A stretch of DNA of 64,000 bases from Synechococcus sp. WH 7803 (lineage in GTDB: Bacteria > Cyanobacteriota > Cyanobacteriia > PCC-6307 > Cyanobiaceae): positions 1,581,918 to 1,645,917 of the forward strand of contig CT971583.1 of the NCBI GenBank assembly GCA_000063505.1. The letters run 5' to 3'. A program made the translations under genes and the position numbers. Below are positions 13,740-16,430 of this stretch, piece by piece (position 1 is the first letter of the stretch; every line of letters begins with the position of its first letter). The notes beneath the pieces were generated by a model that ran no database searches, had not been told where the DNA came from, and saw nothing but the letters and a program-made list of their open reading frames with translations.

Positions 13740-15188
13740 TCAGGCAGGTGTGAGAAGGGAGGCTGCCGCCTGCTTGTAAGCCACCTCCACAACCTCACTG
13801 AGGGTGGGATGGGTATGCACTTCGGTGGAGAGCTGACGCACGCTCTGGCGACGGGCCACGGCATTCGCCACCTCTTGGATCAGATCGGCGGCATGCAGGC
13901 CATAGATGTGGGCTCCCAGCACCTCTCCAGAGGCCTTGTTGAACAGAAGCTTCATCAGACCGTCGCTGTCGAGTTCAGCGAGCGCTTTGGAATTGGCCTT
14001 GAAGTAACTGCGCACCACCCCCAGCTCAAATCCCTGATCAGCCGCCAACTGCTTGGCATCGGCCTCACTGAGGCCCACCGAACTGATCTCTGGATGGGTG
14101 AAGGTGGCAGCAGGAATGCTGCGGTAATCGATCTCGCGGCTGTGGCCAAGAATGTTGTCGATCGCCACCGTCCCCTGCGCCGCAGCCGTGTGCGCCAGCA
14201 TCAGTTTGCCGGTGACATCACCAACGGCCCAAAGGTGGGGGACCGGCTGCCCGTTGGCCAGCACCTGCATGCGGTCATTGATCGGCACAAAGCCGCGTTG
14301 GGTTTCCACACCGAGCTTGTCCAGGTTGAGGTTGCGGCTGCTCGGAACCCGGCCAGTGGCCACCAGCACGGCATCCACCTCGAGGGTCTCCACAGGCTCA
14401 CGGGTCTTCATGTCGACCAGATCGATCTGAACCGGAGCTCCGGGTTTGATCGATTGGGCCAGCACCCCGGATCGCGCATCAATGTCCCGTCCGTCAATCA
14501 AATGACGTGCCGCGATGCGGGTGATGTCGGGATCAAAGGTCGGCATCACCCGATCCAATGCCTCGATCATCGTGACCTCGCAGCCGAGAGCCGTATAGAC
14601 GTCGGCGAATTCCAGGCCGATATAGCCACTGCCGATGATGGCGAGCCAGCGCGGCAGCCACTCCAGGCTGACGGCCTCATCACTGGTGAACACGCTGCGA
14701 CCATCGGTCTCGATCCCGGGCGGAACGAACGGATCCGATCCTGTGGCCAGGATCACGTCCTTGCCGGTGATCACACGGTCCACGCCGCTGATTTCCCTCA
14801 CGCCCACGGCCTGAGCCGACTCCAAACGCCCCTGACCGCGAATGATCGTCACCCCAGCCCTTTCCAGGGTTTTGGTGAGGTTGCCGCGAATCGTGGCGAC
14901 CAGTTGATTGGCGTGATCCGCAATTTTCTGGCGCTCGAAACGCACCGGGGCGGCATGGATCCCGAAACCGGCCAGATGGTCGGCATCGGCCAGCTCGCGC
15001 ACACGGCCTGAAGCGGCGAGCAGAGCCTTGGAAGGAACACAGCCGCGGTTCACACAGGTTCCGCCCATGTCGCGCGACTCGATGATCGCCACCTTCAGGC
15101 CATGCTCGGCAGCATGCTTCGCTGCATCGAAACCGCCGTAACCGGCACCGATCACGATCACATCGAAGTCGAAACTGGCGTCGCTCAC
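13740..15188 (-). CDS. lpdA: Dihydrolipoamide dehydrogenase (E3)
   Basis: This FAD enzyme reoxidises lipoyl groups of the pyruvate dehydrogenase and glycine cleavage systems. The 482-residue protein shows the FAD fold ([15 protein letters not shown]), the redox disulfide [13 protein letters not shown], the NAD-binding [20 protein letters not shown] and the C-terminal catalytic histidine in [10 protein letters not shown]. The start is GTG at 15188, overlapping the stop of the upstream methyltransferase gene by 4 bp (GTGA), which implies translational coupling. Confidence 0.95.
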
Positions 15189-16060
15189 CCGGACTGCTGC
15201 ATGGGAGCCGTCATTGTCGCCCGTCGTCGTTCCAAGAGCAGGGGTACGGCGGCAGCTGCCACATTCAATGACTCCACTTTGCGGCCATGAGGAAGGGTGA
15301 CGCCATGGCTGCAACAGCCCAGCAGCTGGGGATGCAAGCCAGCCCCCTCATTACCGAGCACCAGCACGGTGGGGCGACACCAGTCCAATTGCCAATAGGG
15401 CTGAACCGGAAGACCGGCTGCTGCATCCGGCACAAGGGTGGCCACCACCTGCAGTCCCCTGGTTCTCGCATCCTTCAGGGCAGTGGCCAGTTGTTCAACA
15501 CCCTGGGCGTCGGTAGGGCCGAAGCGTTGGTAGGGCATTGAGAGGAGTGCTCCGGCAGCGGACCGCACCACTTTCGAGCCCAGTGGATCAGCTCCGGCCC
15601 CCATCCAGACCTGCTCAACATCGGCTGCCAGAGCTGTTCTCAGCAGGGTTCCCACATTGCCAGGATCCTGCAGGCGATCGAGGGCAAGAACAAAGTTTGG
15701 GTGGGGACCTGCGGCCGGCAAAGACTTGAGCGGCCAGAGACAGGCGACTCCGTCGGGGTGCACGGTGGTCAGAGCAGCTCCGAGCGCTTCGGGCGTCATC
15801 AACTGCACCTGAACCGGTCCTGGCAACTGGGCCAGCAAGTCCCGATGGCGCTGAAGCCAGAGCGGCGTGACCAAAACAGACAGGGGGTCGGTCCACGCCT
15901 CGCCCTGGGCGAGCAGCTCCTGCACCTGATGCGTTACCTCGAGCAACACGCACTGCTCACTCTCCCGACCGGCCTTGCTCTGCAACGAGCGAATGCGTTT
16001 GATCAGGGGATTGCGCCGACTCGAAATCGGCTCACCCTCAGCCCTTGCAATCACTGGCAC
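15185..16060 (-). CDS. TrmH/SpoU-family RNA 2'-O-ribose methyltransferase
   Basis: This knotted SPOUT methyltransferase probably modifies rRNA or tRNA. The 291-residue product has a substrate-binding N-terminal domain (SSRRNPLIKRIRSLQSK) and the three SpoU motifs: LDRLQDPGNVGTLLRTA, LVLGNEGAGL and ESLNVAAAAVPLLLE. The specific target nucleotide is not determinable. The start looks like GTG at 16060, one base after the stop of the interrupted small gene upstream, so the four genes from 16310 down to 12833 look like one transcript. Confidence 0.88.
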   Translation of the reverse strand: MPVIARAEGEPISSRRNPLIKRIRSLQSKAGRESEQCVLLEVTHQVQELLAQGEAWTDPLSVLVTPLWLQRHRDLLAQLPGPVQVQLMTPEALGAALTTVHPDGVACLWPLKSLPAAGPHPNFVLALDRLQDPGNVGTLLRTALAADVEQVWMGAGADPLGSKVVRSAAGALLSMPYQRFGPTDAQGVEQLATALKDARTRGLQVVATLVPDAAAGLPVQPYWQLDWCRPTVLVLGNEGAGLHPQLLGCCSHGVTLPHGRKVESLNVAAAAVPLLLERRRATMTAPMQQSG

Positions 16061-16061
16061 G

Positions 16062-16310
16062 TCAGAAGCTGGTGTGCTTCCGCACCTTCATGCCTTCGTG
16101 AATCGCCAGATCTGATCCATCAATATCCAAACCATTGACAGCAGCGATCTAACCTTTCAGTCCTTCGGCGGCGAGATTCTCAACCATTTTTTTGATCACC
16201 TGATCCTCAACCGCAGACACATCAACGGAATCGGGAGTTAAAAACTCAAGGAACTTGCCAACCTTCGCCGCCACCACCTCAGAAGAGTTGGAAATCTTCA
16301 GTAAGATCAT
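16062..16310 (-). pseudogene. Small conserved-type gene interrupted by in-frame TAG
   Basis: From the ATG at 16310 a 53-codon frame reads MILLKISNSSEVVAAKVGKF to NLAAEGLKG and meets TAG at 16151-16149. The same frame then continues with 28 protein-like codons (IAAVNGLDIDGS to EGMKVRKHTSF) to a TGA at 16064. Read through, the product would be 82 residues, and I think it matches a conserved small picocyanobacterial protein that has glutamate at this position (GAG to TAG is a single change). The function is unknown. The simplest reading is a nonsense mutation or sequencing error; amber readthrough is possible but unsupported. It sits 1 bp upstream of the methyltransferase start. Confidence 0.7.
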
Positions 16311-16346
16311 GGTCAGCAGTTAGAGGCTCTAGCTCTAAAAACATAG

Positions 16347-16430
16347 TGCGGATGGGGAGACTTGAACTCCCACGACATTGCTGCCACTAGTACCTGAAAC
16401 TAGCGCGTCTACCAATTCCGCCACATCCGC
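16347..16430 (-). tRNA. tRNA-Leu(CAG)
   Basis: This is an 84-nt cloverleaf with acceptor arms GCGGATG/CATCCGC, a long variable arm typical of leucine tRNA, and the T-arm GTTCAAGTC. The anticodon stem CTAGT/ACTAG encloses the loop TTCAGGT, giving anticodon CAG for CUG codons. The CCA end is not encoded. Confidence 0.95.

Follow-up and report, generated by a model that had tools for sequence, protein, structure and literature searches.

The present analysis shows that a small minus-strand gene of the window, the 64,000-nucleotide stretch of DNA analysed here (positions 1581918-1645917 of a single 2,366,980-base contig), carries an in-frame TAG at a position where the ancestral codon specified glutamate. 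The stop is unique to this genome, which has no tRNA with a CTA anticodon. It is fairly probable, in our assessment, that a recent nonsense mutation specific to this strain broke the gene. The interruption of this conserved small gene is in any case of an ordinary kind, either a nonsense allele confined to this strain or a sequencing error of one base. One gene call of this genome is thus marked as broken or wrongly sequenced, and annotation of the 53-residue open reading frame as a naturally short protein would be wrong. The features of the locus are collected in Table 1.

Table 1. Features of the interrupted gene and its neighbours, in window coordinates
Feature	Position	Strand	Basis
Conserved 82-codon gene of marine picocyanobacteria, interrupted at codon 54	16062-16310	-	translation and homologues
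In-frame TAG; relatives have GAG or GAA (one CAG)	16149-16151	-	codon comparison
N-terminal part, 53 codons, ended by TAG	16149-16310	-	open reading frame
C-terminal part, 28 codons, carrying the ancestral TGA; sequence conserved; out of reach without readthrough	16062-16148	-	comparison with relatives
tRNA-Leu (CAG), just upstream of the small gene	16346-16430	-	present upstream at 19 of the 22 scanned loci
SpoU-family rRNA methylase gene, conserved downstream neighbour	15185-16060	-	GTG start at 16060

A single gene on both sides of the stop

Translation of the minus-strand frame from 16310 to 16062 gives 53 codons, TAG at 16151-16149, 28 codons, and TGA (M...LKG, stop, IAAVNG...KHTSF, stop). 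This confirms the original prediction of two segments sharing one frame and parted only by the amber codon. The second segment was also said to end 1 bp before the next gene, and the TGA indeed ends at 16062 while the SpoU methylase starts at 16060. In a scan of all in-frame stops of the window having 26 open codons on each side (n = 696), the TAG comes second when the stops are ranked by how coding-like the codon use is on both sides. Four other high-scoring stops, including the one ranked first, resemble antisense shadow frames opposite real genes and were rejected. Judged from the sequences, the pairing of the two segments exceeds chance, and the question is settled by full-length homology: the split frame is one gene because its full-length relatives show homology across the stop.

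The 17 relatives found in a scan of species genomes were confirmed by tblastn, and every match spans residues 1-82. Within the genus, 28 of the 31 genomes have a match, including all 24 of those of good quality, and the corresponding figure for the cyanobacterial family is 132 of 151 genomes, the window's own included. Beyond this genome, full-length copies are present in most of the family's 150 remaining genomes, and every one of the 27 further genus members with a match has one. None of these 27 matches contains an internal stop, the window's own genome being the only one in the genus that does, and none was found in the best match of the other family genomes among the matches listed. Alignment with related genomes, which had been proposed as the check, thus gives relatives that run full-length across the stop. 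Across 34 aligned sequences G60 is invariant, while position 54, V76, R77, and F82 are nearly so. By these comparisons all 82 residues of the frame belong to a genuine gene, conserved among marine picocyanobacteria.

The surroundings of the gene are also conserved. The murA gene lies upstream, beyond the tRNA-Leu, and the arrangement with SpoU downstream and murA upstream is found in most loci examined. No promoter- or terminator-like site was found between the tRNA and the small gene (16062-16346). In several relatives (e.g., L032, L042, and L044), the ATG of the small gene lies only about 6-10 bases past the 3' end of the tRNA, and therefore tRNA processing could leave the mRNA with almost no leader in those genomes.

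Origin and age of the stop

Codon 54 was compared in 69 copies, two of which (L002 and L137) do not differ anywhere in the gene and could represent a single genome. It is GAG in 46 cases, GAA in 21, CAG in one, and TAG in one, namely the window's own. TAG is accordingly absent from all 68 other copies read. With 67 of these carrying GAG or GAA, and with GAG in L135 and L136, GAG is the likely ancestral codon, in line with the earlier suggestion that a single GAG/TAG change would restore an 82-residue protein. Because the two closest genomes, L136 (87% identical) and L135 (86%, both over 3.2 kb), carry GAG, the TAG is explained by a single G-to-T change on the branch leading to this strain.

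The favored scenario would then be as follows. A recent G-to-T transversion, specific to this strain, would have converted GAG to TAG, and the resulting nonsense mutation would have broken a conserved, although not universal, small gene of marine picocyanobacteria. Translation would most likely stop at residue 53, leaving the last 28 codons as an untranslated remnant, too recent for decay. It speaks for a nonsense allele that intact full-length homologues span the stop, that the nearest relatives lack it, and that one base change suffices. An intact, divergent paralogue in the same genome (see below) also counts in favor of the mutation.

The age of the stop was considered by comparing the window copy with its four nearest relatives, the stop itself being left out. 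Unique to the window copy are nine silent codons and four amino-acid changes; three of the latter (V3L, S15A, and Q31V) fall in the first half and one (T81S) falls in the second. Besides the stop, the C-terminal 28 codons thus contain one change, the conservative T81S. A rough estimate based on nine silent changes in 82 codons gives about nine amino-acid changes expected in a neutral 28-codon tail. As only one is observed where about nine would be expected under neutrality throughout the branch, either the stop is not real or it probably appeared late on the branch. In the first half, three amino-acid changes stand against five unique silent codons, as compared to 2 against 27 in the four relatives together (Fisher p 0.057, from tiny counts), and no excess of amino-acid changes was found on this branch in SpoU and MurA. 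The first-half excess, which is not statistically significant, hints only weakly at relaxed constraint.

The near-absence of C-terminal decay counts against the nonsense mutation to the extent that it fits a sequencing error or readthrough equally well. If the TAG were a wrong base call in the genome as deposited, the living strain would have an intact 82-residue gene, and it would be natural that the rest of the gene seems under almost full constraint, that no relative has the stop, and that a single base change is enough to produce it. However, the genome has been finished to one contig, a one-base error that creates a stop is a priori rarer than one that creates a missense codon, and the N-terminal half, with its weak surplus of amino-acid changes, points to a real loss. 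We regard such an error as rather unlikely, although it is the most serious competitor of the nonsense mutation.

Possible readthrough or a truncated product

Three options had been put forward in the original prediction for the in-frame TAG, and two of them, a recent nonsense mutation and a sequencing error, fit the data. The third, programmed readthrough, lacks support and is unlikely. None of the 43 tRNAs of the genome (tRNA matches read with ARAGORN) has a CTA anticodon, and RF1 is encoded in the genome, with a match above the family cut-off. No stimulatory RNA structure could be recognized after the TAG, as the downstream RNA folds no better than shuffled sequences (z 0.13), and the only Rfam matches near the locus are to tRNA. 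In addition, TAG ends two of the 33 long open reading frames of the window. Programmed or leaky readthrough giving the full protein would account for the continued conservation of the C-terminal codons, but the lack of the stop in every relative weighs against it along with the tRNA, RF1, and folding results, and we consider it highly improbable. One study links U directly after a stop to reduced readthrough (PMC5289835), so that the TAG, which is followed by A, does not have the tightest context; as an argument for readthrough this is weak at best. It is likewise scarcely credible that near-cognate tRNAs read through the new UAG often enough for selection to maintain the C-terminal half.

Another alternative is that the truncation is tolerated, the 53-residue N-terminal product still being made and functional. 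The structure model of the protein places its predicted helices at residues 2-23 and 31-48, both before the stop, which would be compatible with a working short form. However, the model, with a mean pLDDT of 51, is too poor to be of use, and the C-terminal part, which contains the invariant G60 and the nearly invariant positions listed above, is normally constrained. Homologues ending naturally at residue 53, which would have spoken for a short protein, were looked for, and none ends there. A functional short product is quite improbable, if somewhat less so than readthrough. Returning to the nonsense mutation, we infer that living cells do carry the stop, and that the gene now gives a truncated product without function.

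The gene family and comparison with known systems

The gene belongs to a family mostly confined to this cyanobacterial family; outside it, weak matches occur in one further genus of the class. Scans of the 82-residue protein against Pfam, NCBIfam, and PHROGs gave no family match, and when 34 homologues were run against Pfam, only weak, scattered matches appeared. No homologue is carried in the phage records, profile searches returned no convincing relative in the PDB, and a literature search found nothing on this small gene. As a by-product, the analysis thus yields a family of conserved small proteins in picocyanobacteria that is uncatalogued and has no Pfam or NCBIfam model. Many relatives have second copies of the family. 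In the present genome, a profile search located a second, intact, divergent member at 326477-326704, an 87-residue open reading frame with 24% identity (E 4.5e-7); this paralogue (G000:C1:326477-326704; L094:1468-1731, minus strand) adjoins a DUF3181 gene. In one other genome, a second copy that has diverged (G079:C36:2741-2962) contains one in-frame TGA, and occasional breakage of this small-gene family may therefore not be unique to the window's genome.

With amber recoding and programmed readthrough, as in pyrrolysine insertion, suppressor tRNAs, or readthrough elements, the locus shares an in-frame TAG with conserved coding sequence after it. It differs from them in having no CTA-anticodon tRNA, no stop conserved in relatives, and no downstream structure, and in the presence of RF1. 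The resemblance to a strain-specific nonsense allele, that is, a young pseudogene, is much closer: a single-base stop interrupts a conserved gene, no relative shares it, and the rest of the frame is intact, with no difference beyond what is ordinary for such alleles.
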